Of a stretch of DNA of 64,000 nucleotides, positions 40,039-64,000 are shown piece by piece. Each line of letters starts with the position of its first letter. Within the stretch, counting starts at the first letter, position 1. Made by a program: the position numbers and the translations under genes. The DNA is from Siphonodentalium dalli (lineage: Eukaryota > Mollusca > Scaphopoda > Gadilida > Siphonodentaliidae): NCBI GenBank assembly GCA_032622095.1, contig CP136069.1:103072278-103136277 (forward strand), read 5' to 3'. Below the pieces are notes generated by a model. It saw only the letters and a program-made list of their open reading frames with translations. It was not told where the DNA came from and did no database searches.

Positions 40039-40142
40039 TATATATATATATTTTGAGACTTCCGTGCACAATTAACTGATTGAAAAGCGAAAAAAAAGTC
40101 ATGTTTCGGACCAACGCCGCCAGTGGCGGGCTAACCTGCTAG
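40039..40142 (+). mobile_element. Helitron-like element, Hel-A copy 2 (104-bp internal deletion form)
   Basis: Retains only the 5' phrase ttttgagacttccgt and the last 85 bases ending CTAG. It shows that the two ends are the conserved units of this family. Confidence 0.55.
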
Positions 40143-42419: not shown

Positions 42420-42689
42420 TTCTGAATGAAGATGAATGTATAGAAAACAACCCAGTATTTATAGTAATGAGCAGCTATTAATTTTAGTATCACTCAAATG
42501 ATTAACATAAACAACTTCCATAATAGCACTTAGCTGTTAAATTATAATAATGCCAACAGAGAAGCTAATTAGTCATTGAGATAACTTTTCTGGACTTATA
42601 TTGTGTAAAGTAGCAAATGTGACTCTTAAAATCCATCACACTAATTTACTGAAATCTGACCAGTAAGAATGTGTAAAATCAATTAACAC

Positions 42690-42845
42690 ATTTCAGTGAT
42701 TACGCGTAATCCCTAGCCACTTTTAGTGATTTCATGAAATCCCTGACACATTCAGTAATTACGTGTAACCACGGACCATGTTTAGTGGTTTCATGTAATC
42801 CCTAGGGATTTCGCGTAATTACTAATTTCACTGATTTACTGTAAC
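42690..42845. repeat. Subterminal 30-bp palindrome array of the Ginger-like element
   Basis: Palindromic cores sit every 29-30 bp: GATTACGCGTAATC at 42,698, GATTTCATGAAATC at 42,728, aattacgtgtaac at 42,757 and ggtttcatgtaatcc at 42,787, then ggatttcgcgtaatt at 42,806. The first two are perfect 14-bp palindromes. These are plausible transposase-binding sites near the right terminus. Confidence 0.7.
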
Positions 42846-43931
42846 ATATATATGTGTGTACTTCATAGAATCGAAAACGGTTCGCTCGATTGAGTTCAAA
42901 CTTCCCATCTAAATGTAAAAACCCACGGGAATCGTCGTCGCGGCGTTTTGGAGAAGCTCAGAGCACGCGTTCTCAACTCTCAGTCACAAAAAACGGCACT
43001 GCGGTGGTTAATAGCGTTGATAGTTAAAGAGCGTTCGTGTCCGCAGTGTGTTGATAAAGAGCGTATGTGTTTAATGTGAATCTTACGTCTGGGTCTCGGC
43101 ATGAGCGTGTAAGACTGTATCCAGACATGAGCGTGTTGTGTGACGACATTCCCAACACCTAACAGGGACAAATATCCATTAGTCACCATCAAGGCGAGTA
43201 ACGACATTCCCAACACCTAACAGGGACAAATATCTATTAGCCACCATCAAGGCGAGTATTGCGACGTATTAATTCAAATGCTTTCGATCAAACAATATTC
43301 TTTGTCGCACTCATATTTCGTCATCTCTACGAAAGCAGCACATGTCGCGTTGGTGATGGGGTGCGCGGCGGGATTAATTTAAATATGTCATGTTGGTAAC
43401 AATATCTAGCCGAGAATTCCTCAGACCTACAGACGAATGCGACCAGCAAATTTCAAAATTGGTCACTCGACCTCCCCATGAATATCTCCTGGAAAATGCC
43501 AGGGAATGCGTGTCCATTATCGGGCCATTGTGTGTGTCGCGGTCGCGCAATTTGAACACTTTCGATGTAAATACACGTGGTTGTGAATTATGTCACGCCA
43601 CGTGGATCCAGGCGGAAGTTAAACTGACCCTTCCAATGCCACATACGTTAGTGATACTGGAGTTATAGCGTGCGCGTTATGTTTTTTGACTGACCACAGT
43701 GCCCGATCCGCCGAATGTGAGCATGTTATCACCTGTTACGGCAGTCCGTGGTCCACGGCAGTCAATTGTCGTGTCGAATATTAAAGCCTACTGATCAATT
43801 CAAGGTCAAATCGGGTAAAACTCGCTGTTTTCGACGAAAGTCTACACCTAGGTGCAGCATGTATACGTGTCTCGGAAGCTGTTGCAATTGCTTTTTCGAA
43901 CAAAGCCACGAGACGAACCACGCCATGCTAG
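42846..43931 (+). mobile_element. Helitron-like element, Hel-A copy 4 (5' tip missing)
   Basis: Begins at 'tatatatgtgtgtacttcat', lacking the first 25 bases or so, and ends 'cgccatg' CTAG at 43,928-43,931. It includes a 58-bp perfect-to-near-perfect tandem duplication (43,143-43,200 and 43,201-43,258, 'acgacattcccaacacc') that is single in copy 7. Short frames within are unrecognised. Confidence 0.55.
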
Positions 43932-45017
43932 TCTATATATATATTTTGAGACTTCCGTATATATATATGTGTTTGTGGGTACTTCATAGAATCGAAAACA
44001 GCTGCGCGGATCGAGCTCAAATTTCGTATATAAGTGTAAAAACACACGGGGATCGTCGACGTCGCAGTTTGGACAAGCTATGGGCTCTCCTTGGCCCTTA
44101 AAGGGCGACCTTCGTTTCGATACGGTGGGTTTCGCTATCGATTCGCTCGCGATCCAAGAGGCGTAACTCTACATTTTTTATATCTGTATATGTATATTTT
44201 TATATCCATATTCACTCCACACTGATAAACCCGTTGAGCCAAAACTTGCTAATACCTTCCAAAATATAGAATTTATATTTTCTGATATATACATTTCTTG
44301 TTACGGCTGAAAATCTTAGTCTATTTTCGATACATTCATATAAACAAGCTATAAACATACACCCCTCAAATCGTGCTAACTCACGCAGCTTATATGGCTG
44401 CTGAAATTCAGTAAATACCAGGCAGTGCGATACGTCCCCGAATCTGACGGGACTTCCACTGCCTTCTCCTTTGACTATCTCGTAAAGGTGGGGGGTCAAT
44501 CCCAAGCCGTGAATGCCAACAACAACGACATTGTTAGCGAGAAAATAATTAATAAAATTAATAAATCCACACAATGCTAATTTTCTCTTTACGGCAATGT
44601 GAGAATCTTCGGGCGAAAATTTTCGGGTGGCCACCAAGCCGTGAATGCCAACAACAACGACATCGTTGGCATTCCTCTTTTAGGGACGGGTATCAACAGA
44701 ATTAACTCATTAAAAAATGCGTGTTGCCCCAAGCCGTGAATGCCAATGACAACGACATCGTTGGCATACCTCTTTTACGGACGGGTATCATAATTCCTCT
44801 TGATTAAAAAGACAGAATTAACTCATTGAAAAATGCGTGTTGTGTGATTCTTATGTCTGGTGAAATTTTCATCGGGTCAGTTTGTACCTTAAGTCATACC
44901 TCTTTTAGGGATGGGTACCATAATTCCTCTTGGTTAAAAAGTCACAATTAACTCATTGAAAAGCCAAAAAATGTCATGTTTCGGACCAACGCCACCAGTG
45001 GCGGGCTAACCTGCTAG
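43932..45017 (+). mobile_element. Helitron-like element, Hel-A copy 5 (1,086 bp, complete)
   Basis: Starts TCTATATATATATTTTGAGA directly after a CTAG and ends with the hairpin (ccaccagtggcgg) and CTAG at 45,014-45,017. A phrase 'aagccgtgaatgccaa' is repeated at about 44,506, 44,637 and 44,734. This is the best length standard for the family. Confidence 0.6.
44212..44637 (-). CDS. Unrecognised 141-residue open frame inside Hel-A copy 5
   Basis: A fairly long frame opposite to the element's orientation. It includes 'NVVVVGIHGLGLTPHLYEI' and 'LRELARFEGCMFIACLYECI'. I do not recognise a family. It is absent from the other Hel-A copies in this window, so it could be a captured host fragment, or chance. 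Start codon uncertain. Confidence 0.2.
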   Translation of the reverse strand: MVATRKFSPEDSHIAVKRKLALCGFINFINYFLANNVVVVGIHGLGLTPHLYEIVKGEGSGSPVRFGDVSHCLVFTEFQQPYKLRELARFEGCMFIACLYECIENRLRFSAVTRNVYIRKYKFYILEGISKFWLNGFISVE

Positions 45018-45543
45018 TCTATACTATATATTTTGAGACTTCCGTATATCTATATATATATATATATATAGCTATAGCTATATATATATATATATATGTA
45101 CTTTATAGAATCGAAAACGGCTGGCTCGATTGAGTTCAAACTTCCCATCTAAGGGTAAAAACCCACGAATACCGTAGTTGTCGCGTTTTGGAGAAGCTCT
45201 GAGCACCCTTTATCCACTCCCAAATCACCGCAAAGGCACGGCGCGTGGGTTAATCAAGTGATTATTTAATGAGCGTTTGTTTTTGACGCATCGCTATAAA
45301 GAGCGTCTGTTTACCATTCAACTTATTAGCATCTGCAGAGAGATATACGGGAACATTGAGTGGTTTCCTATGCGGGGAGATTTATTGGATGCCATAGTAC
45401 TCTTACAACATCATTGTTATAGTATGTATGACACTTAGGTCAGGGCTTAGGGGGGGGGGTAGTTATAGGCATAATGCTTCTCAGAAATCCCGGTTAAAAA
45501 CCAACACTCACAATTTCGTATTTACGCAAAGGTATACGGGAAC
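45018..45543 (+). mobile_element. Helitron-like element, Hel-A copy 6, left part
   Basis: Starts TCTATACTATATATTTTGAG after the previous CTAG and is interrupted at 45,543 by the giant palindromic element. Its right part is 61,897-62,540, ending CTAG. Removing the insert and one 6-bp duplicate leaves about 1,164 bp, in line with copy 5. Contains a (TA)n tract near 45,050-45,097. Confidence 0.6.
45538..45543. repeat. Target-site duplication GGGAAC (left)
   Basis: GGGAAC precedes AGCAGC at the left end of the palindromic element and follows GCTGCT at its right end (61,897-61,902). The phrase 'atatacgggaaca' also occurs just upstream at about 45,344-45,356, showing it is native host-repeat sequence. 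Confidence 0.85.
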
Positions 45544-45681
45544 AGCAGCGTGATTGTGACTGTGGGTCATGTATGTGTGGGACCCCTTTTCCTATAGGAC
45601 TATGGCTCCATAGTATGTCAACGCCCCCTTTCCTATGCTTTGTATGTGTATATATGGCCCCATGGTATGGTAACGCCCCCT

Positions 45682-45921
45682 TTAATTATTATATATCGCT
45701 CCTCCTTCCCACGTAATTTCTGGAACATTTTTATTGTTCTGGAAAATTCTGGAACATTTTTTTTGTTCTGGAACATTTTTATTGTTCTGGAACAATCTGG
45801 AACATTTTTTTTCTAGTAAAATCCATAATGTATTCGTGTAATAAAATTTATATTTGTCTACGGCCTCTTTAAAATTATACAACTGTAAAGTCCCAATGTT
45901 AATTTCACACGGTACACACAT
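45682..45921 (-). CDS. Small 79-residue ORF near the left end, repeat-containing
   Basis: ATG at 45,921; its counterpart in the right arm is 61,519-61,758 with one Lys/Glu difference. The C-terminal half has a tandem peptide, KKCSRLFQNNKNVPEQ then KKCSRIFQNNKNVPE, encoded by repeated 'tctggaacatttttattgt' DNA. A splice-acceptor-like TTTACAG lies inside, so it may be an exon rather than a free ORF. Not recognised. Confidence 0.25.
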   Translation of the reverse strand: MCVPCEINIGTLQLYNFKEAVDKYKFYYTNTLWILLEKKCSRLFQNNKNVPEQKKCSRIFQNNKNVPEITWEGGAIYNN

Positions 45922-46158
45922 TGGGTATCATAGCATCTATCTATTTACCGTTCTCCACGCATAGAATATAGGCAGTTAAAATCATTTATTTTTGTCTTCT
46001 ACAACATTCTAGTAAATCCATAATGTATTCGTGTAAGACACTTCATACTCGCATATGGCCATTTAAACTAACAAGGCTGAAGGCAGACGCACCTTTGTCT
46101 GTTAATTAACTTCTAAGCACGGGGGAACACAATGCACCTACTGCAGGGCACAGAGCTC

Positions 46159-46446
46159 TCAAGCTAATAACACAACATATAACCATTCTGGAACATTCTC
46201 CATACCGACGGGGATAAAGCGGTGAAACAGATTAATGAGATTATGCATTATACCACTAGGTGATAAAACATTTAAGCCTTTGAATAAATCCATACCGATG
46301 GGGATAAAGCGGTGAAACAGATTAATGAGATTATGCATACCACTAGGTGATAAAACATTTAAGCCTGCACTAATTTGAATAAAAAAACATTCAGGGTGAA
46401 TTTGCACATATTGGTTAGGAAAAATAAAATGCCTTTCTAGCTGCCT
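46159..46446 (-). CDS. Exon-like open frame with two internal 25-residue repeats (left arm)
   Basis: Follows a good splice acceptor (pyrimidine-rich tract then TTTCAG at 46,449-46,447) and runs open to a TGA at 46,159. The block GLNVLSPSG(I)MHNLINLFH and then RFIPVGM is present twice, and the frame ends ENVPEW... The NVPE motif is shared with the adjacent small ORF, so the two could be exons of one outward-facing gene. Family unknown. Confidence 0.3.
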   Translation of the reverse strand, partial: RQLERHFIFPNQYVQIHPECFFIQISAGLNVLSPSGMHNLINLFHRFIPIGMDLFKGLNVLSPSGIMHNLINLFHRFIPVGMENVPEWLYVVLLA

Positions 46447-47019
46447 CTGAAACAATTAATAAAATTAAAATAATCTACAAAGTTCTCAGCACGTGGGAGA
46501 CCATCTAGGTATTAAATACACATCTAACTCCAAGCAGCCAACATATGCTTACAGAGCATAACCCATGCAATTTAACTCTCACAAAAGTTATACCGCTAGC
46601 GGAATGAACCCTGAATACATACTGACTCCCCATTATGTATCCCTCCTAATGGTCAACTGTTATGGTACAATTGATTAAATCATCACTAACATTAGTTAAG
46701 CTTTTTCTCTAAATACCCCTTTAATATCTGTAATCGAACTATTAGGAATCAATCAACGCCTTGCCAATAGATATTTGAACATTTCAAATAAAGTAAATCC
46801 TACACACAATATCTCGAAGATTCGTAATTAAACACATGTTTAAGTTATTTAATGCCACGATAGGTCTTTCATTCAAATGCATGCTCCTAATGGCTTCTGC
46901 ATCTGTGGAGACTGAGAGATAAACAAAATTAATGTTTCTGTAGAAATTAAGGTTTTCTAGTGTGTCACTACTTCAGATATGGTTCAAATAGCATACAAAT
47001 CACCGCATTTTGGTCACAT

Positions 47020-48860
47020 ACCTTAAAGGTACACGTCATTTGTGCATTTAAACCTAATTCCGCGTATACATCAATAAAAACGCTCTTTATTTTCCAAATA
47101 GTTTGAATGTACCTAGTTTTAACAAACATTTATGCAATCTACATGCTTTCATTCATATAAAATTTACGAAATGTATCTTAAACGACAACAACATTGTAAC
47201 AGACTGGCCACTTACCTTCAATTTATAGGTCATATTAGCCTGTACATTTATGGGAGACAGACATACATAATATAATGCATTGGCACAGTGTTAGTGATAA
47301 TAATAAGGTGTCATTACTTCAGAAATGGTTCATATAGCATACTATTGTACCCGTGGTCACGTACATTAAATGAACACGTCACTTAAGCATTTAAACCTAA
47401 CTCAGTGTATCTATCAATAAAACGCTCTTTATTTTCAAATTTGTCTGAATTGTACTAAATTTACATTTAAAATCAAGCATTTAAACCTAGTTCCGTCTAT
47501 CCGTAAATAAAAAACGCTCTTTATTTTCAAAATTTGTCTTAATGTCCATCGTTTACTAAATTTATATTTAAAATTAAGCATTTAAACCTAATTCCGTCTA
47601 TCCGTAAATAAAAAACGCTCTTTATTTTCAAAATTTGTCTTAATGTCCATCGTATACTAAATTTATATTTAAAATTAAGCATTTAAACATAATTCATCGT
47701 ATCTATCAATAAAACGCTCTTTATTTTCAAAAACGTCCATAGTTTTAACAAAGATTTTGCAATCTACATGCTTTAATTCATATAAAATTACCCAGTGTGT
47801 GTTAGACAACAAAATTATAACATATTGGCTTTCAAGTTACATATGCATGTACATTCGATGCACGAGGAAACATTGTAGGAAATGAAGGTATTGATGTGTC
47901 ACTACTTCAGAAATTGTTCATACAATTGACCGTATTTTGATCACATACCTTAAAGGTACACGTCACTTTGTCTATAAACAGACAATACATTACACGTAGG
48001 GTTAAACATGTCCATCGTAGTAAGCTTATTTACTTCAGAAATGGTTCATATAGCATACTATGCACCCGTGGTCACATACCTTAAAGGAACACGTCACTTA
48101 GGCATTTAAACATAACTCAGTGTATCTATCAATAAAACGCTCTTTATTTTCAAAATTGTCTTAATTGTACTAAATTTACATTTAAAATCAAGCATTTAAA
48201 CCTAATTCCGTCTATCCGTAAATAAAACACACTCTTTATTTTCAAAATTTGTCTTAATGTCCATCGTTTACTAAATTTATATTTAAAATTAAGCATTTAA
48301 ACATAATTCATCGTATCCATAAATAAAAAACGCTCTTTATTTTCAAAAACGTCCATAGTTTTAATAAAGATTTTTGCAATCTACATGCTTTCATTCATAT
48401 AAAATTACCCAGTGTGTGTTAGACAACAACATTATAACATATTGGCTTTCAAGTTACATATGCATGTGCATTCGATGCACGAGACAACATTGTAGGAAAT
48501 GAAGGCATTGATGTGTCATTACTTCAGAAATTGTTCATACAATTGACCGTATTTTGATCACACACCTTAAAGGTACACGTCACTTTTGTCTATAATCACA
48601 CAAAACATTACACATATAGGGTTCAACATGTCCACCGTAGTAAGCTTATTTACTTCAGAAATGGTTCCAATAACATAGTATTGTACCGGTGGTATCACAT
48701 ACCTTAAAGGTACACGTCACTTTTGTCTATAATCAGACAATAAATTACACGTAGGGTTAAACATGTCCACCGTAGTAAACTTATTTACTTCAGAAATGGT
48801 TCCAATAGCATAGTATTATACCCGCGGGGTCACATACCTTAAAGGTACACGTCATTTGTG
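47020..48860. repeat. Iterated regulatory-looking block, left arm
   Basis: Modular repeats. Eight sites have AATAAA and TTTATT 5-9 bases apart (consensus AATAAAACGCTCTTTATT) at about 47,073, 47,416, 47,507, 47,607, 47,708, 48,131, 48,221 and 48,322. Six clear sites of ACCTTAAAGGTACACGTCA lie at about 47,019, 47,947, 48,078, 48,573, 48,711 and 48,836, plus a degenerate one near 47,364. Around them two longer modules alternate ('tctataatcagacaa...' and 'atttaaacctaattcc...'). No coding frame of note. Confidence 0.8.
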
Positions 48861-50097
48861 TCTATAATCAGACAATACATTACGCATAGGGTTCAACATG
48901 GTCACCGAAGCAAACTAATCCAAAAGCAACGAACACCCATTACTGAGTCCCGCTGTTACACACAACACAATTACTCGGGATTAAGGTCTTCTAGTAATGA
49001 GTTATGGTTGTATACTTTAGAAATGGTACCTATAGCATAATATTGTACCCCATTGATGCACATCACGTTTCATGTGAATTACATGAGCAGGTAACTCAAT
49101 TCTCTGCATATTATATACAGTGTTATTTAGCTTAGAAATGGTTGTTATTTTATATCAATATACCAGTTTATGTCACAGACAAAATGCGTACTCACTCTTC
49201 ACATATACTAATATGTAAGCATTTGTATCATTTAGAATGTCAAAATATGGTCTACGTCAGTCGTATTAGCTATATATGGCCACTTACCGTTCAAGTTATA
49301 ACCCCATTAAAACTATGCTTCAAATGTAAATTATATGTAACTTGAATATGATCGGTCCCCAGGCCCTTTTTAGGTCATAGGTTCTAACCGACCATCGTTC
49401 ATACTCGAACGCGTGTGTATATGATAGCTATGGTAATGGTAGAGAAATCTAGAGAGCTACGTAGACCCACTGCCTACATCAATATATATATACGATATAC
49501 ATGCACTGGTCGCAATGGGTTCCCGTTACTAGCCTATAGACATGAAGTATTAAAGTTATACACCTTCATCAGCGCGCTCTTAATGAGTTTTGAATTGGCA
49601 TATGGGTACGAATCCAAACCATTCCGATGTAATTTATCGGAATGCCAATCATAACCATCTGCACAGAGAAAGCTAGTGGGGACGATACACACTGTTTGCG
49701 TAATTGACTAGACACATTGAGGTAAAGAAGCACCCTGATGTATCAAAGGTATATTTCAAGGATTTTTAATCGGCAGCCATTATTGAATATATCTTTGTTG
49801 GGCATGGTCATATGCACCACTGTGTTTCATATAAAACAAAGAACTAGTGGGTGGTGAAATCACCGAAGGCCAATATTCCCGATGGTAAGTTAATTTTAGG
49901 ATATGGGATACATTTATGACTAAATCGGTTATAGGAAATGAGGTAAATTGCACTTTATTATTTAAAAGGAATAACGCTATACAAGCTTAAACACACAAAC
50001 CATGAGTTTTATCAACTTATTACGTATAGCATATTTGGAGTTTAGTTATGTTCATCAAACACCGGTACTTGACACCTCTGTCTGTATATTTTTGTTA
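48861..50097. other. Left-arm segment without a supported gene
   Basis: Small frames (60-79 codons) exist here and in the mirror arm but lack recognisable features. A TTTATT at 49,954-49,959 is a poly(A) signal (AATAAA) for the minus-strand ORF at 50,098-50,694. Confidence 0.5.
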
Positions 50098-50694
50098 TTA
50101 CGATTGGGTCCCGTGTTCACCCTTTTTAGTTGTAAGCGAATAGTCTCCATAGCTCCAAATCGTTCCGAATGTCCAAACTAATTCACTATCTAATTCTGAA
50201 ATAGGTTTAGTTGTGCTTACAATGTAATCCAAAACTAGTTGTTCATTGAACATCTTTTCAATCGTGAAAATAGGACAAGGTTCCCTCATAATAATGTAAC
50301 CATAAATTGATGTAACTTCTTCGAATTCCAAACTATAGTCATTAAAAACCGTGCTACGGTATTCAGCGAAGCGGGAAAAGTTATCACCGATAAGTACACG
50401 AATCTCATATATGTCTTTTTTAGTAATACCACTAAATATCCAACACTCAGAAAACAGTTGATCCAAAGTATCCAGTAAGATATCTGTTTCAAATTCTGAT
50501 CTCTCCATCAAAGCATTCAATCTCTTTCTACCATCATCAAAATTTCCTTCTAGAAGTTCCGTAATTATTAATTTACTCTCCCTTAAGAACCATGTATGTT
50601 GTAATTCTGTTTTCATGTCTCCATGTATCGTTGACGCGTTAACTAACTCCTTGTAAATTTTCTCAAGCATTTCTGTGGGTAATATTTCCTCCAT
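50098..50694 (-). CDS. F-box-like 198-residue protein of the palindromic element (intact copy)
   Basis: ATG at 50,694, stop at 50,098. The N-terminus MEEILPTEMLEKIYKEL fits the start of an F-box (LPxE-xLxxIxxxL), a domain that docks on SKP1 in ubiquitin ligases. The remainder is acidic and leucine-rich (for example KLIITELLEGNFDDG and ETDILLDTLDQLF), with no known domain that I can name. A TATA-like tatttataa with an adjacent CCAAT lies at 50,861-50,874, about 170 bp upstream, and AATAAA lies about 140 bp downstream. It is the only sizeable intact ORF in the element. The F-box call rests on a short motif and could be chance. Confidence 0.55.
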   Translation of the reverse strand: MEEILPTEMLEKIYKELVNASTIHGDMKTELQHTWFLRESKLIITELLEGNFDDGRKRLNALMERSEFETDILLDTLDQLFSECWIFSGITKKDIYEIRVLIGDNFSRFAEYRSTVFNDYSLEFEEVTSIYGYIIMREPCPIFTIEKMFNEQLVLDYIVSTTKPISELDSELVWTFGTIWSYGDYSLTTKKGEHGTQS

Positions 50695-52740
50695 AATTCC
50701 TAATTTACAAAACCATCTGTTTATTCGAGTAAATCCGCTAACTCACATGTCATTGGCCATGAGTTCCTCATATAATTAACACAATCGGTTGTTCGTACCC
50801 ATACCTAGTGAGCTTTTGATCTATAATAGCTATCGGTAAAGTATTTAGTTCTTATTATAATATTTATAACCAATCAAAATCCGTTGCTGAATTTAGCTAT
50901 ACGAGGACAAACGGAATGATAACATCCGTTCAACAACTTGGTATTCCAGTCATAGTCATAGTTCATTTCATATTATTACTCTAAAATCTCCATTACATGG
51001 AGAAAATAAAGAGCCCATCTGATGTAAACTAGTATATAAGTACTTAGTGATTTATTTTCATCAATTATATGTATTGTTACTCCTATAAATATAGTCTGTT
51101 ATACAGAGGATACATCGCCCACGTGACAGTATCGTGTCGCGAAAGGTCTATACAAGTATATAAATGCGCGTCAGGTTTATGTATATGTCCCTGTTTCTTA
51201 AAGCAAATCCAGTACATATACGTGCGTTAAGACACGTGCAATTGCCACTAGTAAATCACGTATAAAATCTCTTTACTGCATAGTTAAACTGTTGAGTTTT
51301 CACACGTATTCTATGTCGTTTTTTATGGACTATATACGTGGTATATGTCAGTATATACACGAATGTAATGTATAATCACGTATTAATTTCATATATTCTT
51401 CTCAAAACAACTCAGCACAACGCATCAATTCTGATGACTATGGCGGTTCAAACAGTGTACACTTTCAGTGTTGTTACAGTTTAATGCATACCATACTCAT
51501 TTATGCATAATAACGCGGGTCTACATCGTTGCTATATACCTATATACGTCCATATTTCTTAAAGTATAGTATCTATACGTACATCATGGCGTATATTAAA
51601 CCCCCTTTCACTGGTAAATCACGTATAAACGCTCTTTATTGTATAGTCAACTAACCATTTCGACATACACGCTGCTCTGTGGTGGTCTGTTGTGTCTTAC
51701 CATTATACCATTATATGTAGAAGGTAATGTGGTCAAATATGTATAAGTCTGATTTTGTGTCAATGTGCCTGTTATTAATCTCATCAATTGGGTCGTTTAT
51801 AAGTCGTCAAACATGATGATTTCTAATCATCTAATAGGTATTATAAAAAATGCCTACTTCACAAATATTTTGAGTGCATTTCAGTGTATGTTTCGTGCTC
51901 TGTAAAAACGTGATTTGACCGCTAGTGATGTAGTGAAATAACGTATTTTATAGTTGTCAAATACGTACTAAAAATATTGTCAATTTATGACTCATCTAAT
52001 GAATTTTCCACACCTAGTGTCTACAATATGTTTATATATTGTGACTCATTACTACGATTGCAGTATGTCCACGTATGTCAGATATTACATAACCTTGATA
52101 ACTATGTTTAGAAATACCTGGTATATGAGATCATATTGTAGCTTACAGAGACTGGAATGCGACTTGCATCTACCATCACGTGCGTTCGAATGAAGTTACA
52201 TGTACGATATGAGCCATTATATGTGTCGATGAGGTGTTATATCAGTATATTCATGCAATATTCGTAAATGACAGCAACATATCTTTTCCCTCCCATTATC
52301 AAGCGAGATTTTGTGGTTAGCTGACAAACATGGCATTTTCGAATATATATAGCCTATTGGACACTTACTTCAAATGCTAAAATTGCCTCTTCAAAATAGT
52401 TAAAAGTACACATTTTTATTTCGAATTTCATTGTTTACGGTTAATTTCCTGTTATGAAATTGGTCCTTTTATAAATGCTTAATACGCAGTTACAAAAAGC
52501 CCTAATTGACAAACATTTTAAGCGCTATTATGACTATATTTGACGAATAAAAAAAACGCCATTTGACGTAGTACAACAACGTGAAATGACTACTTTTTTA
52601 AACGCGAATTTGAAACAAAACTAATATACAAAAGAATTTTAAATTAAAATAATAAGTTTGGTTGATGTATAGTTTGGTTGACAGCATTTTCACACACAGA
52701 AGCGTTATGATACAGTTTCACCACTCACACAGAAGCGATC
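50695..52740. other. Left arm, inner noncoding part with diverged repeats
   Basis: Contains two related sites 'taaatcacgtataaa' followed by 'ctcttta' (near 51,255 and 51,615). These sit in longer diverged units that also share 'tttcttaaag'. No protein is supported. Confidence 0.5.
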
Positions 52741-52877
52741 TTATACGGTGTAGCGGTATGTTACAGAGTTATCGTTCTTTTCGAGGCTAAAAAAAGCGCA
52801 GGCCGGCCCCCTCCCTCTCCCCCGTTTTAAAAGGGGCGGTGTTAAGGGGAGCGATCGAGCGTCACGAAAAAATGTCA
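52741..52877. promoter_or_regulatory. GC-rich inner edge of the left arm
   Basis: An abrupt GC-rich island in AT-rich arms, with ggggcggtg (GC-box-like), gcgatcgagcgtcacg and a C-rich run. The mirrored copy is 54,565-54,701. It could hold divergent promoters or an origin. Function inferred from composition only. Confidence 0.4.
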
Positions 52878-54564
52878 TAGAAGAAAAGTATAAGGCAGAG
52901 GAAATGGATGGGGGAAACGACACAGTATGAGGGGTAATGGGGTGTGGGAAATGGGGATGTGATGATATGACCGTGTATTAATTGGAGATGATAATGGATT
53001 AGGTAGTGTACACTGTTCATGGTTTTTAATATATGAATTAACATATAGTGAAGAGCTTAGGAGGCTAGGAAAAGCCACTCAATATAGGTTTATACATGTA
53101 GATGGTGCAAAAAGGGGGAGGAGATGGGGAGAGCGAGAGGCAAGAAATTGGGGGGAAGGGTATAATTTGGAGAAAACATTGAGGTGTAAGCCTTACTTTC
53201 CTAGGAAAACATTGGGATTGTTGTGGGTAGAACAGAGGTAAAATAAGAGTTGTATAAAATGGAAAAGGGAGACATGAAAAGAATGAAAGGTGCTTATGGG
53301 AAAAAGGGTAAAGGGGCAGTGGGAGAGTGTACAGCGGTGTATAGCGAAGAGTATAGGAGGCTAAGAAAAGCCACTCAATATAGGTTTATACATGTAGATG
53401 GTGCAAAAAGGGGAAGGAAATGGGGAGAGCGAGAGGCAAGAAATTGGGGCAGAAGGGTATAATTTGGAGAAAACATTGAGGTGTAAGCCTTACTTTCCTA
53501 GGAAAACATTGGGATTGTTGTGGGTAGAACAGAGGTAAAATAAGAGTTGTATAAAATGGAAAAGGGAGACATGAAAAGAATGAAAGGTGCTTATGTGAAA
53601 AGGGTAAAGGGGCAGTGGGAGAGTGTATAGAGGTGTATAGCGAAGAGTATAGGAGGCTAAGAAAAGCCACTCAACAGAGGTTTATACATGTGTAAAAAGG
53701 GGAAGGCGATGGGGAGAGTGAGATGCAAGTAAATGGGAGCAGAAGGGTTTAATTTGGAGAAAACATTGAGTAGTAAGCATTACTTTCCTAGGAAAACATT
53801 GGGATTGTTGTGGGAAGAACAAAGTGTTTAGAGGTACAAAAGGGGAAGGTAAAAAAGAATGAAAGGTGGTTATGTGGAGAAAGGTAAATGGGGTATAGGG
53901 TAAAATAAATAGAGGTGTATAGCAGAGAGCTGGGGTGGGGAACATGTACATAATTAAAGTAGATGAGATAAGAATAATCATTGAGTATATACCTAAATCA
54001 TATGAAATGTGGGGGTTTTGCGTTGGAAGGAGAGGGGTAACCATGATTGCAGACAGTAATTAGGGGGTAAGAGCCGGCAATGGGGCTTAAATGGTATAGA
54101 AAATAAAATGGCACCAGGTAGAGGAAAGCAGAGGGAGTGAGAGAAGAGGGCCATAGGGGTAAAAGTATAACTAAATCATATGAACTGGGGTGGAGAGGAG
54201 AAGAGATGGGTAAAAGGGGACATATATACATATATATAATTTAGGTGTAAGCAGTTGGTCGAAAACATAGGGGATGTAACGCGACAAAAGAGTAAACATA
54301 AAGCAGAGAATGAATGGAAAGTATTACGTATATGTGTATGAACTTGGGGGTTTGTGTATTAAGGATACAGTAGTAAAAAGGAGAACACATGCAAAATGGT
54401 GTAAACTTATAGGAAATGACAGGGACATAGGGCAAAGAACATGAATGATGCACAAAGTAGCATAAAGATGATGGCTAAGAAGTTCGGAAGAGAGGGGGTT
54501 ATATTGGGTAAGGGTAAAAGTAGAATTGTGGTAAATATGTAGAAGGGTTATGTGTAAAATAGGG
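52878..54564 (+). other. Unique purine-rich centre of the palindromic element (1,687 bp)
   Basis: Plus strand is strongly G+A-rich and C-poor throughout. It contains three copies of an about 296-bp repeat starting near 53,047, 53,343 and 53,639 ('ggaggcta.gaaaagccactca'). Three open strips without ATG starts lie on the plus strand: 52,966-53,241 (91 codons, ending ...LGLLWVEQR), 53,923-54,063 and 54,280-54,444. The C/T-rich complement also gives open frames, so coding is not established. They may be short exons or decayed genes. Confidence 0.6.
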
Positions 54565-56571
54565 TGACATTTTTTCGTGACGCTCGATCGCTCCCCTTAA
54601 CACCGCCCCTTTTAAAACGGGGGAGAGGGAGGGGGCCGGCCTGCGCTTTTTTTAGCCTCGAAAAGAACGATAACTCTGTAACATACCGCTACACCGTATA
54701 AGATCGCTTCTGTGTGAGTGGTGAAACTGTATCATAACGCTTCTGTGTGTGAAAATGCTGTCAACCAAACTATACATCAACCAAACTTATTATTTTAATT
54801 TAAAATTCTTTTGTATATTAGTTTTGTTTCAAATTCGCGTTTAAAAAGTAGTCATTTCACGTTGTTGTACTACGTCAAATGGCGTTTTTTTTATTCGTCA
54901 AATATAGTCATAATAGCGCTTAAAATGTTTGTCAATTAGGGCTTTTTGTAACTGCGTATTAAGCATTTATAAAAGGACCAATTTCATAACAGGAAATTAA
55001 CCGTAAACAATGAAATTCGAAATAAAAATGTGTACTTTTAACTATTTTGAAGAGGCAATTTTAGCATTTGAAGTAAGTGTCCAATAGGCTATATATATTC
55101 GAAAATGCCATGTTTGTCAGCTAACCACAAAATCTCGCTTGATAATGGGAGGGAAAAGATATGTTGCTGTCATTTACGAATATTGCATGAATATACTGAT
55201 ATAACACCTCATCGACACATATAATGGCTCATATCGTACATGTAACTTCATTCGAACGCACGTGATGGTAGATGCAAGTCGCATTCCAGTCTCTGTAAGC
55301 TACAATATGATCTCATATACCAGGTATTTCTAAACATAGTTATCAAGGTTATGTAATATCTGACATACGTGGACATACTGCAATCGTAGTAATGAGTCAC
55401 AATATATAAACATATTGTAGACACTAGGTGTGGAAAATTCATTAGATGAGTCATAAATTGACAATATTTTTAGTACGTATTTGACAACTATAAAATACGT
55501 TATTTCACTACATCACTAGCGGTCAAATCACGTTTTTACAGAGCACGAAACATACACTGAAATGCACTCAAAATATTTGTGAAGTAGGCATTTTTTATAA
55601 TACCTATTAGATGATTAGAAATCATCATGTTTGACGACTTATAAACGACCCAATTGATGAGATTAATAACAGGCACATTGACACAAAATCAGACTTATAC
55701 ATATTTGACCACATTACCTTCTACATATAATGGTATAATGGTAAGACACAACAGACCACCACAGAGCAGCGTGTATGTCGAAATGGTTAGTTGACTATAC
55801 AATAAAGAGCGTTTATACGTGATTTACCAGTGAAAGGGGGTTTAATATACGCCATGATGTACGTATAGATACTATACTTTAAGAAATATGGACGTATATA
55901 GGTATATAGCAACGATGTAGACCCGCGTTATTATGCATAAATGAGTATGGTATGCATTAAACTGTAACAACACTGAAAGTGTACACTGTTTGAACCGCCA
56001 TAGACATCAGAATTGATGCGTTGTGCTGAGTTGTTTTGAGAAGAATATATGAAATTAATACGTGATTATACATTACATTCGTGTATATACTGACATATAC
56101 CACGTATATAGTCCATAAAAAACGACATAGAATACGTGTGAAAACTCAACAGTTTAACTATGCAGTAAAGAGATTTTATACGTGATTTACTAGTGGCAAT
56201 TGCACGTGTCTTAACGCACGTATATGTACTGGATTTGCTTTAAGAAACAGGGACATATACATAAACCTGACGCGCATTTATATACTTGTATAGACCTTTC
56301 GCGACACGATACTGTCACGTGGGCGATGTATCCTCTGTATAACAGACTATATTTATAGGAGTAACAATACATATAATTGATGAAAATAAATCACTAAGTA
56401 CTTATATACTAGTTTACATCAGATGGGCTCTTTATTTTCTCCATGTAATGGAGATTTTAGAGTAATAATATGAAATGAACTATGACTATGACTGGAATAC
56501 CAAGTTGTTGAACGGATGTTATCATTCCGTTTGTCCTCGTATAGCTAAATTCAGCAACGGATTTTGATTGG

Positions 56572-56580
56572 TTATAAATA
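56572..56580 (+). promoter_or_regulatory. TATA-like box upstream of the F-box-like ORF (right arm)
   Basis: ttataaata lies just downstream of gattgg (reverse CCAAT), 167 bp before the ATG at 56,747. The mirrored left-arm copy is conserved. Confidence 0.4.
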
Positions 56581-56746
56581 TTATAATAAGAACTAAATAC
56601 TTTACCGATAGCTATTATAGATCAAAAGCTCACTAGGTATGGGTACGAACAACCGATTGTGTTAATTATATGAGGAACTCATGGCCAATGACATGTGAGT
56701 TAGCGGATTTACTCGAATAAACAGATGGTTTTGTAAATTAGGAATT

Positions 56747-57342
56747 ATGGAGGAAATATTACCCACAGAAATGCTTGAGAAAATTTACAAGGAGTTAGTT
56801 AACGCGTCAACGATACATGGAGACATGAAAACAGAATTACAACATACATGGTTCTTAAGGGAGAGTAAATTAATAATTACGGAACTTCTAGAAGGAAATT
56901 TTGATGATGGTAGAAAGAGATTGAATGCTTTGATGGAGAGATCAGAATTTGAAACAGATATCTTACTGGATACTTTGGATCAACTGTTTTCTGAGTGTTG
57001 GATATTTAGTGGTATTACTAAAAAAGACATATATGAGATTCGTGTACTTATCGGTGATAACTTTTCAGCTTCGCTGAATACCGTAGCATGGTTTTTAATG
57101 ACTATAGTTTGGAATTCGAAGAAGTTACATCAATTTATGGTTACATTATTATGAGGGAACCTTGTCCTATTTTCACGATTGAAAAGATGTTCAATGAACA
57201 ACTAGTTTTGGATTACATTGTAAGCACAACTAAACCTATTTCAGAATTAGATAGTGAATTAGTTTGGACATTCGGAACGATTTGGAGCTATGGAGACTAT
57301 TCGCTTACAACTAAAAAGGGTGAACACGGGACCCAATCGTAA
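56747..57342 (+). pseudogene. F-box-like ORF, frameshifted right-arm copy
   Basis: Same gene as 50,098-50,694 read outward on the plus strand. Near 57,066 it reads ttttcagcttcg where the left arm has ttttcccgcttcg. This one-base loss truncates the protein after about 135 residues; the remaining C-terminal part stays open in the next frame (57,088-57,342). Otherwise the two are nearly identical. Either arm could hold the derived state, but the longer uninterrupted frame suggests this one is damaged. Confidence 0.6.
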
Positions 57343-57480
57343 TAACAAAAATATACAGACAGAGGTGTCAAGTACCGGTGTTTGATGAACATAACTAAAC
57401 TCCAAATATGCTACACGTAATAAGTTGATAAAACTCATGGTTGGTGTGTTTAAGCTTGTATAGCGTTATTCCTTTTAAAT

Positions 57481-57486
57481 AATAAA
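57481..57486 (+). terminator. Poly(A) signal AATAAA
   Basis: Lies 139 bp after the stop of the F-box-like ORF in the right arm. Conserved in mirror at 49,954-49,959. Confidence 0.4.
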
Positions 57487-58579
57487 GTGCAATTTACCTC
57501 ATTTCCTATAACCGATTTAGTCATAAATGTATCCCATATGCTAAAATTAACTTACCATCGGGAATATTGGCCTTCGGTGATTTCACCACCCACTAGTTCT
57601 TTGTTTTATATGAAACACAGTGGTGCATATGACCATGCCCAACAAAGATATATTCAATAATGGCTGCCGATTAAAAATCCTTGAAATATACCTTTGATAC
57701 ATCAGGGTGCTTCTTTACCTCAATGTGTCTAGTCAATTACGAAAACAGTGTGTATCGTCCCCACTAGCTTTCTCTGTGCAGATGGTTATGATTGGCATTC
57801 CGATAAATTACATCGGAATGGTTTGGATTCGTACCCATATGCCAATTCAAAACTCATTAAGAGCGCGCTGATGAAGGTGTATAACTTTAATACTTCATGT
57901 CTATAGGCTAGTAACGGGAACCCATTGCGACCAGTGCATGTATATCGTATATATATATTGATGTAGGCAGTGGGTCTACGTAGCTCTCTAGATTTCTCTA
58001 CCATTACCATAGCTATCATATACACACGCGTTCGAGTATGAACGATGGTCGGTTAGAACCTATGACCTAAAAAGGGCCTGGGGACCGATCATATTCAAGT
58101 TACATATAATTTACATTTGAAGCATAGTTTTAATGGGGTTATAACTTGAACGGTAAGTGGCCATATATAGCTAATACGACTGACTTAGACCATATTTTGA
58201 CATTCTAAATGATACAAATGCTTACATATTAGTATATGTGAAGAGTGAGTACGCATTTTGTCAGTGACATAAACTGGTATATTGATATAAAATAACAACC
58301 ATTTCTAAGCTAAATAACACTGTATATAATATGCAGAGAATTGAGTTACCTGCTCATGTAATTCACATGAAACGTGATGTGCATCAATGGGGTACAATAT
58401 TATGCTATAGGTACCATTTCTAAAGTATACAACCATAACTCATTACTAGAAGACCTTAATCCCGAGTAATTGTGTTGTGTGTAACAGCGGGACTCAGTAA
58501 TGGGTGTTCGTTGCTTTTGGATTAGTTTGCTTCGGTGACCATGTTGAACCCTATGCGTAATGTATTGTCTGATTATAGA

Positions 58580-60420
58580 CACAAATGACGTGTACCTTTA
58601 AGGTATGTGACCCCGCGGGTATAATACTATGCTATTGGAACCATTTCTGAAGTAAATAAGTTTACTACGGTGGACATGTTTAACCCTACGTGTAATGTAT
58701 TGTCTGATTATAGACAAAAGTGACGTGTACCTTTAAGGTATGTGATACCACCGGTACAATACTATGTTATTGGAACCATTTCTGAAGTAAATAAGCTTAC
58801 TACGGTGGACATGTTGAACCCTATATGTGTAATGTTTTGTGTGATTATAGACAAAAGTGACGTGTACCTTTAAGGTGTGTGATCAAAATACGGTCAATTG
58901 TATGAACAATTTCTGAAGTAATGACACATCAATGCCTTCATTTCCTACAATGTTGTCTCGTGCATCGAATGCACATGCATATGTATCTTGAAAGCCAATA
59001 TGTTATAATGTTGTTGTCTAACACACACTGGGTAATTTTATATGAATGAAAGCATGTAGATTGCAAAAATCTTTATTAAAACTATGGACGTTTTTGAAAA
59101 TAAAGAGCGTTTTTTATTTATGGATACGATGAATTATGTTTAAATGCTTAATTTTAAATATAAATTTAGTAAACGATGGACATTAAGACAAATTTTGAAA
59201 ATAAAGAGTGTGTTTTATTTACGGATAGACGGAATTAGGTTTAAATGCTTGATTTTAAATGTAAATTTAGTACAATTAAGACAATTTTGAAAATAAAGAG
59301 CGTTTTATTGATAGATACACTGAGTTATGTTTAAATGCCTAAGTGACGTGTTCCTTTAAGGTATGTGACCACGGGTGCATAGTATGCTATATGAACCATT
59401 TCTGAAGTAAATAAGCTTACTACGATGGACATGTTTAACCCTACGTGTAATGTATTGTCTGTTTATAGACAAAGTGACGTGTACCTTTAATGTATGTGAT
59501 CAAAATACGGTCAATTGTATGAACAATTTCTGAAGTAGTGACACATCAATACCTTCATTTCCTACAATGTTTCCTCGTGCATCGAATGTACATGCATATG
59601 TAACTTGAAAGCCAATATGTTATAATGTTGTTGTCTAACACACACTGGGTAATTTTATATGAATTAAAGCATGTAGATTGCAAAATCTTTGTTAAAACTA
59701 TGGACGTTTTTGAAAATAAAGAGCGTTTTATTGATAGATACGATGAATTATGTTTAAATGCTTAATTTTAAATATAAATTTAGTATACGATGGACATTAA
59801 GACAAATTTTGAAAATAAAGAGCGTTTTTTATTTACGGATAGACGGAATTAGGTTTAAATGCTTAATTTTAAATATAAATTTAGTAAACGATGGACATTA
59901 AGACAAATTTTGAAAATAAAGAGCGTTTTTTATTTACGGATAGACGGAACTAGGTTTAAATGCTTGATTTTAAATGTAAATTTAGTACAATTCAGACAAA
60001 TTTGAAAATAAAGAGCGTTTTATTGATAGATACACTGAGTTAGGTTTAAATGCTTAAGTGACGTGTTCATTTAATGTACGTGACCACGGGTACAATAGTA
60101 TGCTATATGAACCATTTCTGAAGTAATGACACCTTATTATTATCACTAACACTGTGCCAATGCATTATATTATGTATGTCTGTCTCCCATAAATGTACAG
60201 GCTAATATGACCTATAAATTGAAGGTAAGTGGCCAGTCTGTTACAATGTTGTTGTCGTTTAAGATACATTTCGTAAATTTTATATGAATGAAAGCATGTA
60301 GATTGCATAAATCTTTGTTAAAACTAGGTACATTCAAACTATTTGGAAAATAAAGAGCGTTTTTATTGATGTATACGCGGAATTAGGTTTAAATGCACAA
60401 ATGACGTGTACCTTTAAGGT
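58580..60420. repeat. Iterated regulatory-looking block, right arm
   Basis: Mirror of 47,020-48,860, with 'aataaagagcgttttatt' sites and 'tgacgtgtacctttaaggta' sites in matching order. Confidence 0.8.
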
Positions 60421-60993
60421 ATGTGACCAAAATGCGGTGATTTGTATGCTATTTGAACCATATCTGAAGTAGTGACACACTAGAAAACCTTAATTTCTAC
60501 AGAAACATTAATTTTGTTTATCTCTCAGTCTCCACAGATGCAGAAGCCATTAGGAGCATGCATTTGAATGAAAGACCTATCGTGGCATTAAATAACTTAA
60601 ACATGTGTTTAATTACGAAGCTTCGAGATATTGTGTGTAGGATTTACTTTATTTGAAATGTTCAAATATCTATTGGCAAGGCGTTGATTGATTCCTAATA
60701 GTTCGATTACAGATATTAAAGGGGTATTTAGAGAAAAAGCTTAACTAATGTTAGTGATGATTTAATCAATTGTACCATAACAGTTGACCATTAGGAGGGA
60801 TACATAATGGGGAGTCAGTATGTATTCAGGGTTCATTCCGCTAGCGGTATAACTTTTGTGAGAGTTAAATTGCATGGGTTATGCTCTGTAAGCATATGTT
60901 GGCTGCTTGGAGTTAGATGTGTATTTAATACCTAGATGGTCTCCCACGTGCTGAGAACTTTGTAGATTATTTTAATTTTATTAATTGTTTCAG

Positions 60994-61281
60994 AGGCAGC
61001 TAGAAAGGCATTTTATTTTTCCTAACCAATATGTGCAAATTCACCCTGAATGTTTTTTTATTCAAATTAGTGCAGGCTTAAATGTTTTATCACCTAGTGG
61101 TATGCATAATCTCATTAATCTGTTTCACCGCTTTATCCCCGTCGGTATGGATTTATTCAAAGGCTTAAATGTTTTATCACCTAGTGGTATAATGCATAAT
61201 CTCATTAATCTGTTTCACCGCTTTATCCCCGTCGGTATGGAGAATGTTCCAGAATGGTTATATGTTGTGTTATTAGCTTGA
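60994..61281 (+). CDS. Exon-like open frame with two internal 25-residue repeats (right arm)
   Basis: Mirror of 46,159-46,446: acceptor TTTCAG at 60,988-60,993, open to TGA at 61,279. It has a Val where the left copy has Ile, and no disabling differences. Conservation here is expected simply from arm identity, so it does not prove function. Confidence 0.3.
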   Translation, partial: RQLERHFIFPNQYVQIHPECFFIQISAGLNVLSPSGMHNLINLFHRFIPVGMDLFKGLNVLSPSGIMHNLINLFHRFIPVGMENVPEWLYVVLLA

Positions 61282-61518
61282 GAGCTCTGTGCCCTGCAGT
61301 AGGTGCATTGTGTTCCCCCGTGCTTAGAAGTTAATTAACAGACAAAGGTGCGTCTGCCTTCAGCCTTGTTAGTTTAAATGGCCATATGCGAGTATGAAGT
61401 GTCTTACACGAATACATTATGGATTTACTAGAATGTTGTAGAAGACAAAAATAAATGATTTTAACTGCCTATATTCTATGCGTGGAGAACGGTAAATAGA
61501 TAGATGCTATGATACCCA

Positions 61519-61758
61519 ATGTGTGTACCGTGTGAAATTAACATTGGGACTTTACAGTTATATAATTTTAAAGAGGCTGTAGACAAATATGAATTTTATT
61601 ACACGAATACATTATGGATTTTACTAGAAAAAAAATGTTCCAGATTGTTCCAGAACAATAAAAATGTTCCAGAACAAAAAAAATGTTCCAGAATTTTCCA
61701 GAACAATAAAAATGTTCCAGAAATTACGTGGGAAGGAGGAGCGATATATAATAATTAA
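61519..61758 (+). CDS. Small 79-residue repeat-containing ORF (right arm)
   Basis: Mirror of 45,682-45,921, one residue different. Tandem KKCSR(L/I)FQNNKNVPE peptide. Function unknown. Confidence 0.25.
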   Translation: MCVPCEINIGTLQLYNFKEAVDKYEFYYTNTLWILLEKKCSRLFQNNKNVPEQKKCSRIFQNNKNVPEITWEGGAIYNN

Positions 61759-61896
61759 AGGGGGCGTTACCATACCATGGGGCCATATATACACATACAA
61801 AGCATAGGAAAGGGGGCGTTGACATACTATGGAGCCATAGTCCTAAAGGAAAAGGGGTCCCACACATACATGACCCACAGTCACAATCATGCTGCT

Positions 61897-62540
61897 GGGA
61901 ACAAGTGCTTTCCTATTTTTAGAACGCAACACATGATACCAAACAAAATTACGTCGCGTTGGTGATGGCGTTCACGACGGGATTAATTGACTGTCCGCTC
62001 TTTGCGAGGATGGGGTTCACGACGGGATTAACTTTGCAAGGACTATTGACCATCTCGTAAGGGTGGACAACCTCTGTCAGGGGCTGCTTAATGGCCACGG
62101 GCAGGTTAAAAAAAAGCATACCTCTTCTGGGTCTGGGCGTGTATAGACATGAGCGTGTTGTGTTCCTAAGAACGCGGAGCGTGTTGTGTTCCTAAGAACG
62201 CGGATCGGGTAAGTTTTTCCGCCCTAGGTGAGCTCAAACTTCGTATATAAGTGTAAAAACACACGGGGATCGTCCACTTCGCATTGTGTGAAACATTCTT
62301 ATGTCTGTCGTTCCTAGGAACGGGGGAATTTTTCATCGGGTCAGTCTTAACCTTCAAACGGGTACCCACAAATGATATATTGTGACCCCGACATGACATT
62401 GACCTTGAAAATTATCAATTCAAGGTCAAATCGGGTAAAATATTGAAAAACCCAATATTAACTCATTGAAAAACACAAACAAAACATAAAACATTGTCAT
62501 GTTTCTGACCAAGCACGCCAGTGGCGGGCTAACCTGCTAG
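61897..62540 (+). mobile_element. Helitron-like element, Hel-A copy 6, right part
   Basis: Begins with the second GGGAAC (61,897-61,902) and continues the Hel-A copy interrupted at 45,543. It ends 'ccagtggcgggctaacctg' CTAG at 62,537-62,540. Confidence 0.6.
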
Positions 62541-63126
62541 TACTATATATTTTGCGACTTCCGTATATATATATGTGTGTACTTTATAGAATCGAAAACG
62601 ACAGCACCCATCGAGCTCATTCCCATCTAAGGTTAAAAACCCACGGGAATGGTCGTCGCGGCGTTTTGGAAAAGCTCTGAGCACCCGTTCTTCACTCCCA
62701 ATCATCAAAATCACCGTCAACGGCACTGTGGGGGTTAATCCGGTTGATAGTTAAAGAGCGTTCCTATCCGCAGTGTAGTTGATAAAGAGCGTATGTGCGT
62801 AATGTGATTTTTACGTCTGGGTCTGGGCGTGTGCGTGTAAGACTGTATCCAGACATGCGCGTGTTGTGTGACGACATTCCCAACACCTAGCAGGGACAAA
62901 TATATATTAGCCAGTATCAAGGCGAGTTTTGTGACGTATTAATTCAAATGCTTTCGATCAAACAATATTCTCTGTCGCGCTCATATTTCGTCATCTCTAC
63001 GAATCCACTGCAATCGACCTATTTTTAGAACGCAACACATGTCGCGTTGGAGATGGGGGTGCACGGCGGGATTAACTTAAATATGTCATGTTGGTAACAA
63101 TATCTAGCCGAGAATTCCTCAGACCT
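62541..63126 (+). mobile_element. Helitron-like element, Hel-A copy 7 (3' truncated)
   Basis: Starts tactatatattttgcgacttc directly after CTAG and follows copy 4 to 'cctcagaccta', where the Penelope fragment begins. Contains 'gttaaagagcgttc' and 'gataaagagcgtatg' as in copies 3 and 4. Confidence 0.55.
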
Positions 63127-63366
63127 ATGTGTAACCTCAAAAGGAATGAGATCGGGATTGCATTCTTTAGTTTTGTCTGTGCGGAGCTCTATGAGAGGAA
63201 TTTTCTTGGCTTCAACAATACCATTATCAATTAGTTTTTTCGGGTATTCTTGTGCCAAGAGGAATGTCCGGAGTTCCTCCAGTCGGATGTTTCTCTGAGC
63301 GATATCGTCCACAATGGTACAAACCCACCGTGCGAGGCAATACGGAACATTCCGTTTGGTGTGTTT
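63127..63366 (-). pseudogene. Penelope-like element 2, post-RT segment (inverted half)
   Basis: Minus-strand open frame of 80 residues starting KHTKRNVPYCLARWVCTIV, the conserved block after the RT domain of Penelope-like elements. It ends NPDLIPFEVTH. The next residues of the polyprotein are found in the opposite orientation at 63,490, so the element has been split by an inversion. Confidence 0.75.
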
Positions 63367-63489
63367 TATATATATATAGTAGCAGGTTAGCCCGCCACGG
63401 GCGTGGTTCGTCTCATGGCTTTGTTCGAAAAAGCAATTGCAACAGCTTCCGAGACACGTATGCTGCACCTACCTTGAATTGATCAGTAT
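63367..63489 (-). mobile_element. Hel-A-related fragment between the two Penelope halves
   Basis: Reverse complement of 43,795-43,931 ('gtgtctcggaagctgttgca'), including an end like cctgcta at about 63,381. It lies exactly at the break of the Penelope polyprotein. Confidence 0.55.
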
Positions 63490-64000
63490 CACAATCCTCG
63501 CCATCCAAATGTTATGCAAACGGCTAAATCATTGATACCAATGCTTCACAAAAGTCCAAAGATGAAGCAATTGGTAAAACTGATCACTTACTACAGAGCA
63601 AGCGACAGCCTTGGAATATAAAACGAGCCAAGTTTGACAGTGGCGAAAAACGAGATAAAGAAATCACCAAATGTGGCGACCCCAGATGCGGGACATGTTT
63701 CTGTATATTAACCGGGACACACTTCCTATTAAAGAATGGACAAGATGTTCGCCCCAATGAAGACATGGACTGCAATTCCCAAAATCTAATTTATGTTATA
63801 ATATGTTCGGGGTGGAGGGAATTCTATGTTGGAGAGACGAGAAATTCCCTTGTGGAAAGAACACGGATCCACCGCTCGCAGATCAAACATCCGGCATTAC
63901 GGATGATTCCCTTAAATGGACATCTCGATGACTGTGGCGGTAAATCCTTCCGGATTTTCCCAGTACACAAGATGGTGGAAGTTAGCAGATTCAAAATACT
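63490..64000 (+). pseudogene. Penelope-like element 2, GIY-YIG endonuclease half (runs off window)
   Basis: Begins HNPRHPNVMQTAKSL, the expected continuation of the inverted half. A one-base shift near 63,571 changes frame. After that it stays open to the window end, with the Cys cluster KCGDPRCGTC (near 63,668) and the GIY-YIG region YVIICSGWREFYVGET (near 63,792-63,839), then ERTRIHRSQIKH. It is distinct in sequence from the element at 33,814-36,300, so a second family. No RT portion lies in this window. Confidence 0.8.

Follow-up and report, generated by a model that had tools for sequence, protein, structure and literature searches.

How does a unit of some 16 kb, almost entirely palindromic and with no recognisable mobility gene, come to be inserted in a molluscan genome? 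Here, we address this question for an element of the scaphopod Siphonodentalium dalli, located in a stretch of 64,000 nucleotides (hereafter, the window; contig CP136069.1 of GenBank assembly GCA_032622095.1, positions 103,072,278 to 103,136,277). Our analysis leads us to favour, tentatively and in the knowledge that it could well be wrong, the possibility that the unit is a non-autonomous palindromic ('snap-back') satellite of a self-synthesising element of the Polinton/Maverick type, copied and integrated in trans. The idea of such a hitch-hiker arises because the ends and the target duplication of the unit are Polinton-like, whereas machinery for mobility is not recognisable in it.

The unit spans 16,353 bp (positions 45544-61896) and consists of two inverted arms around a unique centre (Table 1). 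BLAST self-comparison of the window aligned 45543-52877 with 61897-54565 at 99.686% identity over 7,335 columns, the outermost C/G pair of this alignment belonging to the flanking duplication; the arms are distinguished by 21 substitutions and 2 one-base gaps, that is, 23 differences in all. No further copy of note of the left arm or of the centre was found within the window, where BLAST returned 8 matches of 19-30 nt (E 0.04-0.49). Two other ways of building such a structure were judged by eye. Independent insertion of two 7.3-kb elements head to head was rejected, given that the arms possess no inverted ends of their own, and is contradicted also by the target duplication, which flanks the whole unit. 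Arrival of a mobile element in the middle of a perfect palindrome was likewise set aside, with neither inverted ends nor a duplication seen at the borders of the centre.

The unit begins and ends with doubled trinucleotides, and an exact 6-bp direct repeat abuts both arm ends. Such agreement is unlikely to be fortuitous because two random 6-mers are identical with a probability of about 5e-4 (computed for the window from base 2701 on). Inclusion of the A with which the element starts extends the direct repeat to 7 bp (GGGAACA); the 6-bp reading is preferred for the sole reason that the inverted ends are symmetric. Thus, the original prediction, which described near-identical inverted arms of about 7.33 kb, a unique centre of 1,687 bp, the termini AGCAGC...GCTGCT and GGGAAC on both sides, is borne out by the BLAST comparison and the arm alignment, with the 7-bp reading of the duplication possible. 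The insertion into a Helitron-like repeat that it also proposed is supported, whereas the expected fit of the remaining length of this repeat (about 1,164 bp) to its siblings proved to be only approximate: the joined flanks (45035-45543 and 61903-62541) measure 1,148 bp between end motifs, and the same motifs delimit three siblings, two of them 853 and 1,071 bp long and one truncated to 89 bp.

The label 'Helitron-like' derives from the 3' end of this repeat and not from any database match. In sibling copies, such as those running from 39,150 and from 43,920 on, pieces of the left and right flanks follow one another as they do here; both of these copies also hold out-of-order pieces, so that the family appears to be internally repetitive. 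Furthermore, 28 nt spanning the joined site align, with 26 identities and a single gap of 3 nt, to positions 45341-45371, which belong to the left flank of that very copy; the score is 37, compared with a mean of 20.75 and a maximum of 28 in 200 letter shuffles, the search covering 8.7 kb around the element. Given the order of pieces in the siblings and the match across the joined site, the two flanks were, as judged from sequence, most likely contiguous before the insertion. Elsewhere in the window, Helitron-like repeats cluster at 39187-45018 and 62541-64000; four of them end in GGCGGGCTAACCTGCTAGT, and several are nested or truncated.

Table 1. Coordinates, within the 64,000-nucleotide window, of the palindromic unit, its parts and its insertion site.
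Feature	Position	Strand	Remarks
Left half of interrupted Helitron-like repeat	45035-45543	+	start taken from shared motif, approximate; pieces common to siblings 39187-40039 and 43948-45018
Left target duplication GGGAAC	45538-45543		6 bp; exact match to 61897-61902
Left arm	45544-52877	+	7,334 bp; 99.69% identical to reverse complement of 54565-61896
Terminal doubled trinucleotide (AGC)2	45544-45549	+	form like (AGT)2 or (AG)3 of vertebrate Mavericks
Heat-shock-element-like cluster	45718-45792	+	TTCTGGAA present five times; 45737-45754 holds two perfect trimers that overlap
Additional perfect trimeric heat-shock-element-like site	46186-46198	+	pattern scan
Internally repetitive part of left arm	47453-48916	+	tandem arrays of 101-bp and 135-bp units; overlap with two duplicated blocks of ~620 bp
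Orphan ORF, intact left-arm copy	50098-50694	-	198 aa; 214 codons stop to stop
Unique centre	52878-54564		1,687 bp
Right arm	54565-61896	-	7,332 bp
Right-arm copy of ORF, frame-shifted	56747-57154	+	135 aa open
Mirror heat-shock-element-like trimers	61242-61703		61242-61254 and 61686-61703
Right TTCTGGAA heat-shock-element-like cluster	61646-61722		tandem array and trimers
Terminal (GCT)2	61891-61896	+	right end of unit
Right target duplication GGGAAC	61897-61902		exact match to 45538-45543
Right half of same Helitron-like repeat	61903-62541	+	terminates in GGCGGGCTAACCTGCTAGT

To what extent could the unit provide for its own mobility? We scanned with Pfam 57 stop-to-stop open reading frames (ORFs) of at least 48 aa from the left arm and the centre (E<=0.5), a scan that covers exons of this length or longer. 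None of the 57 matched a transposase family, and the weak matches that were obtained (12 families, one ORF each, best E 0.0046 over the 57 ORFs) were taken as chance. The lack of a mobility gene throughout this set implies a helper. Hence the earlier view of an element without recognisable transposition genes holds for the scanned ORFs, with the qualification that each arm contains one ORF longer than expected by chance, intact in the left arm only.

This ORF looks genuine. Its stop-to-stop length exceeds that of any ORF obtained when the left arm was resampled 300 times with a second-order Markov chain, the longest of which had 187 codons. Its period-3 signal is 2.21, and the three top windows of the arm (2.30-2.52) overlap it, the next window elsewhere in the arm reaching 2.16 against a median of 0.94 (windows every 60 bp); codon position 1 is 64% purine, and an AATAAA motif lies about 138 nt downstream of the stop codon. 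In the right arm, the frame is broken by a one-base deletion and an adjacent substitution. Searches for relatives of the 198-aa product yielded one match each in Pfam (E 0.08, under its cut-off) and PHROGs (E 0.038), neither of them credible, and no match in NCBIfam; nothing was found among PDB sequences at E <= 10 or among phages at E <= 1, and the 91 candidates drawn from 5.8 billion proteins included none at E <= 1. Pattern searches returned 3 stretches in IMG/VR and 63 in prokaryote genomes, of which 0 were confirmed in either collection. A single-sequence AlphaFold model was too poor for use (mean pLDDT 43.9).

The resemblance of the unit to the Polinton/Maverick group (Polintoviricetes; adintoviruses) is a likeness in form. 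Intact vertebrate Mavericks have 6-bp target duplications, a length of 16,862 +/- 1,678 bp and terminal inverted repeats (TIRs) of 46-1,447 bp, and their ends are mostly a tandem motif of six bases, either (AGT)2//(ACT)2 or (AG)3//(CT)3, with (AC)3A//T(GT)3 in a single species (PMC8097293). The unit, likewise, is about 16 kb long with inverted terminal repeats, is flanked by a 6-bp duplication (or 7 bp, in the other reading), and has AG...CT ends composed of a short tandem motif. By analogy, the doubling in (AGC)2//(GCT)2 would be what protein-primed replication with jumping-back predicts. Protein-primed polymerases regenerate ends by sliding or jumping back, a behaviour described as general among such systems, and adenovirus uses jumping-back (PMC3480470). 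Integrases of the rve type typically yield 6-bp duplications (PMC12220804), and Polintons have a 6-bp duplication among the eukaryotic groups described in the available text of PMC10045372. The same source gives 6-bp duplications for IS3EU/GingerRoot, with ends TA..TA or sometimes TG..CA, which the AGCAGC...GCTGCT ends do not fit, and 3-6 bp for LTR elements. Endogenous Polinton-like viruses of cryptophytes come close in another respect, with inverted repeats of hundreds to thousands of bp (elements with TIRs of 100 bp to 8 kb passed the filter) and 6-bp duplications typical of the rve integrase, but their repeats enclose core genes, that of the capsid among them (PMC12220804), whereas the unit described here is almost all repeat. 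Kilobase-long TIRs as such are not new in these viruses; the unusual part is an element that is nearly all TIR and contains no core gene. Among the literature matches listed, titles and the opening parts of abstracts describe no palindromic, snap-back or long-TIR Polinton-like element. We therefore describe the unit as working like a Polinton satellite and not as a Polinton itself, because the genes by which Polinton membership is judged were not found in it.

We infer a helper, a linear form of the unit and a snap-back origin, which would fit together as follows. The unit would exist at times as linear double-stranded DNA, the (AGC)2 ends of which would be copied by the protein-primed polymerase of the helper, with the repeated trinucleotide serving the jumping-back. 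The retroviral-type integrase of the helper would then recognise the ends and insert the unit with a 6-bp stagger. The palindrome itself could have originated from a displaced single strand that folded back to prime its own copying or, alternatively, from the copying of one end onto the other, the purine-rich centre of 1.69 kb being left as a loop. The 198-aa protein and the heat-shock-element-like clusters might be accessory, perhaps tying activity to stress. A parallel of form is offered by the symmetric palindromic defective genomes of adenoviruses, which are linear, protein-primed and helper-replicated and have a central loop, but are not integrated with a target duplication. It is conceivable, although we consider it rather doubtful, that the unit represents a whole palindromic, gene-poor satellite class of protein-primed, integrase-inserted eukaryotic elements, the integrated equivalent of the snap-back defective adenovirus genome.

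Several observations weigh against a Polinton satellite. No PolB, rve integrase, ATPase, protease or capsid family was detected in any of the 57 ORFs. The AGC doublet is absent from the three Maverick end motifs given in the available text of PMC8097293, and the 7.3-kb arms are five times as long as the longest vertebrate Maverick TIR reported there (1,447 bp). Long, internally repetitive arms are equally typical of foldback transposons. In IMG/VR, the sole collection scanned for shared ends, no sequence matched a 28-nt pattern of the ends exactly, and the apparent likeness to Maverick ends was recognised post hoc, on one copy. Furthermore, the differences between the arms are unevenly distributed: the outer 350 bp hold 5 of the 21 substitutions (p = 0.003), the inner 2,477 bp only 1 (p = 0.002), both cut-offs having been picked after the list of substitutions had been viewed, and the mean position of the substitutions is displaced outward (p = 0.014). 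This unevenness suggests later gene conversion and not one fold-back event. The pattern fits homogenisation from the loop outward, through either gene conversion or fold-back copying; a uniform mutation clock fits it less well. The original notion of a gene-poor Polinton relative mobilised in trans, which drew on the AG...CT ends and the 6-bp duplication, gains support from the doubled-trinucleotide form of the ends and from a length near the Maverick mean, but has against it the failure to find either a Polinton gene or, in IMG/VR, a relative sharing the ends. The second original reading, a new class of foldback element or linear replicon, could also be correct. The ratio of transitions to transversions between the arms, 7:14 by hand count, looked odd; other repeats in the window vary widely, with 1:8 among variants of a 1.43-kb satellite, likewise transversion-rich, and 9:8, 9:2, 18:19 and 19:20 in four other repeat pairs, the last two inside the element, and no conclusion was drawn.

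Foldback transposons (FB, Galileo, Tetris) share with the unit the long, internally repetitive inverted arms, the non-coding middle and the non-autonomous character, and it could be one of them, namely, a cut-and-paste element whose repeats grew by internal duplication, whose transposase was lost, and which is moved in trans by a DDE transposase that produces 6-7-bp duplications. We regard this as unlikely, if deserving serious attention. The 6-7-bp duplications of Dada elements, which insert in multicopy small-RNA genes, would agree in length with the one seen here; the sequence hit by the unit is a Helitron-like repeat. The 101-bp and 135-bp arrays and the ~620-bp blocks of the arms, together with a centre in which neither coding capacity nor a transposase was found, recall Tetris and other foldbacks as described in PMC4079207, and the duplication can be read as 7 bp. 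However, Tetris generates duplications of 8-10 bp and most foldbacks are assigned to Mutator (PMC4079207), in disagreement with the 6 (or 7) bp observed here, and doubled-trinucleotide ends are not among the foldback traits described in the available text of that source. Still less probable, in our estimate, is a new autonomous class of linear replicons or virus-like elements, in which the 198-aa orphan or an unrecognised protein would act as the mobility or replication factor. The excess length of the ORF over the Markov resamples, its overlap with the three strongest period-3 windows, the downstream AATAAA and the lack of relatives among the 91 database candidates all agree with such a class, but 198 aa is small for a replicase or an integrase, no usable fold was predicted, and the right-arm copy is frame-shifted.

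Long inverted repeats accompanied by regulatory-looking repeats occur in large DNA viruses, and the unit might be an integrated fragment of a larger viral genome of this kind, which strikes us as quite improbable. Teratorn, a herpesvirus/piggyBac hybrid, is a precedent for a mobile element of very large size with long inverted repeats, but it is far larger (41-182 kb) and encodes an active piggyBac-like transposase and herpesvirus genes (PMC6431247), whereas no viral gene was found in the unit by the Pfam scan of the 57 ORFs or the PHROGs search with the 198-aa ORF. Moreover, the unit is whole: both of its inverted ends are present and each is flanked by a copy of the target duplication, which argues against a fragment. 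Near-identical inverted arms are also the classic form of fold-back assembly artefact, and a chimeric read of this type could have been joined into the contig. This explanation is very improbable because the two flanks, different from each other, match the halves of one repeat once joined, and because the 1.69-kb centre is asymmetric; the exact position of the target duplication at the arm ends and the differences between the arms speak against it as well.

The plus strand of the centre is 7.5% C and 70% purine, compared with 47-56% purine in stretches of 1,687 bp taken every 200 bp from 2.7 to 43 kb, and the GC skew reaches +0.62 in kilobase 53001-54000; the centre also holds a 296-bp tandem repeat (x2.6). 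A role of this strand-asymmetric centre as a single-stranded loop is possible. The TTCTGGAA clusters lie about 175-250 bp inside each end of the element. All 6 of the perfect trimeric heat-shock-element matches in the window are in the arms, three per arm, with two of each three overlapping, and this number was reached in 0 of 100 shuffles. The two trimer patterns, being reverse complements, amount to one test, and the number of independent sites is three because the arms copy each other. Among the dimeric sites of the left arm, 6 of 11 occur in its first 300 bp; their density is 1.50 per kb in the left arm versus 0.45 per kb in the 44,935 bp outside. Heat-shock factor (HSF) might bind at such sites, and heat-shock elements inside transposons are known, for example, in Helitrons of Caenorhabditis (PMC6927752).

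If the unit is indeed a Polinton satellite, it would constitute direct genomic evidence of a strand-displacement, fold-back step in Maverick/Polinton replication, and a palindromic derivative with the ends as its sole constant features would isolate the cis-acting sequences for copying and integration. As of 2021, Mavericks had yet to be seen as viral particles (PMC8097293). If a satellite class exists, replication of Polinton-type elements in living hosts would proceed through linear DNA capped by terminal protein, and defective derivatives of these elements would parasitise them, possibly with heat shock in control. Even with another transposon as the helper, a 16-kb unit with 7.3-kb arms would probably be an unusual source of fragile sites and of long double-stranded RNA.

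The remainder of the window, in which no Rfam family attains its gathering score, contains several other repeats and gene remnants. A tandem array of a ~1,435-bp unit (2701-15167; ~8.7 nearly identical copies, with 13 variants among the 8 full units compared) adjoins a 100-N assembly gap at 2601-2700, and a relative of this unit, 87-88% identical, occupies 730-1924. An exact 869-bp direct repeat (1-869 and 1732-2600) ends at the gap; it represents one more tandem unit or, alternatively, overlap in the assembly. The retroelement ORFs at 32847-36308, which we take to be Penelope-like, resemble reverse transcriptase over one stretch, where the group II intron RT model gives E 1.3e-6 and falls far short of its cut-off. 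They also include a GIY-YIG-like domain that narrowly misses its own cut-off (E 2.6e-4), and this latter part has a second, inverted copy (97%). Finally, an integrase gene fragment on the minus strand (41169-42051) resembles the H2C2 zinc finger and the rve core (Pfam, both below cut-off) as well as the IS481 transposase (NCBIfam, E 9.9e-9, below cut-off). It looks to be of the Ginger/Gypsy type rather than of Polinton origin, because it includes a zinc finger of the H2C2 kind, which Polinton integrases are said to lack (PMC2836005).

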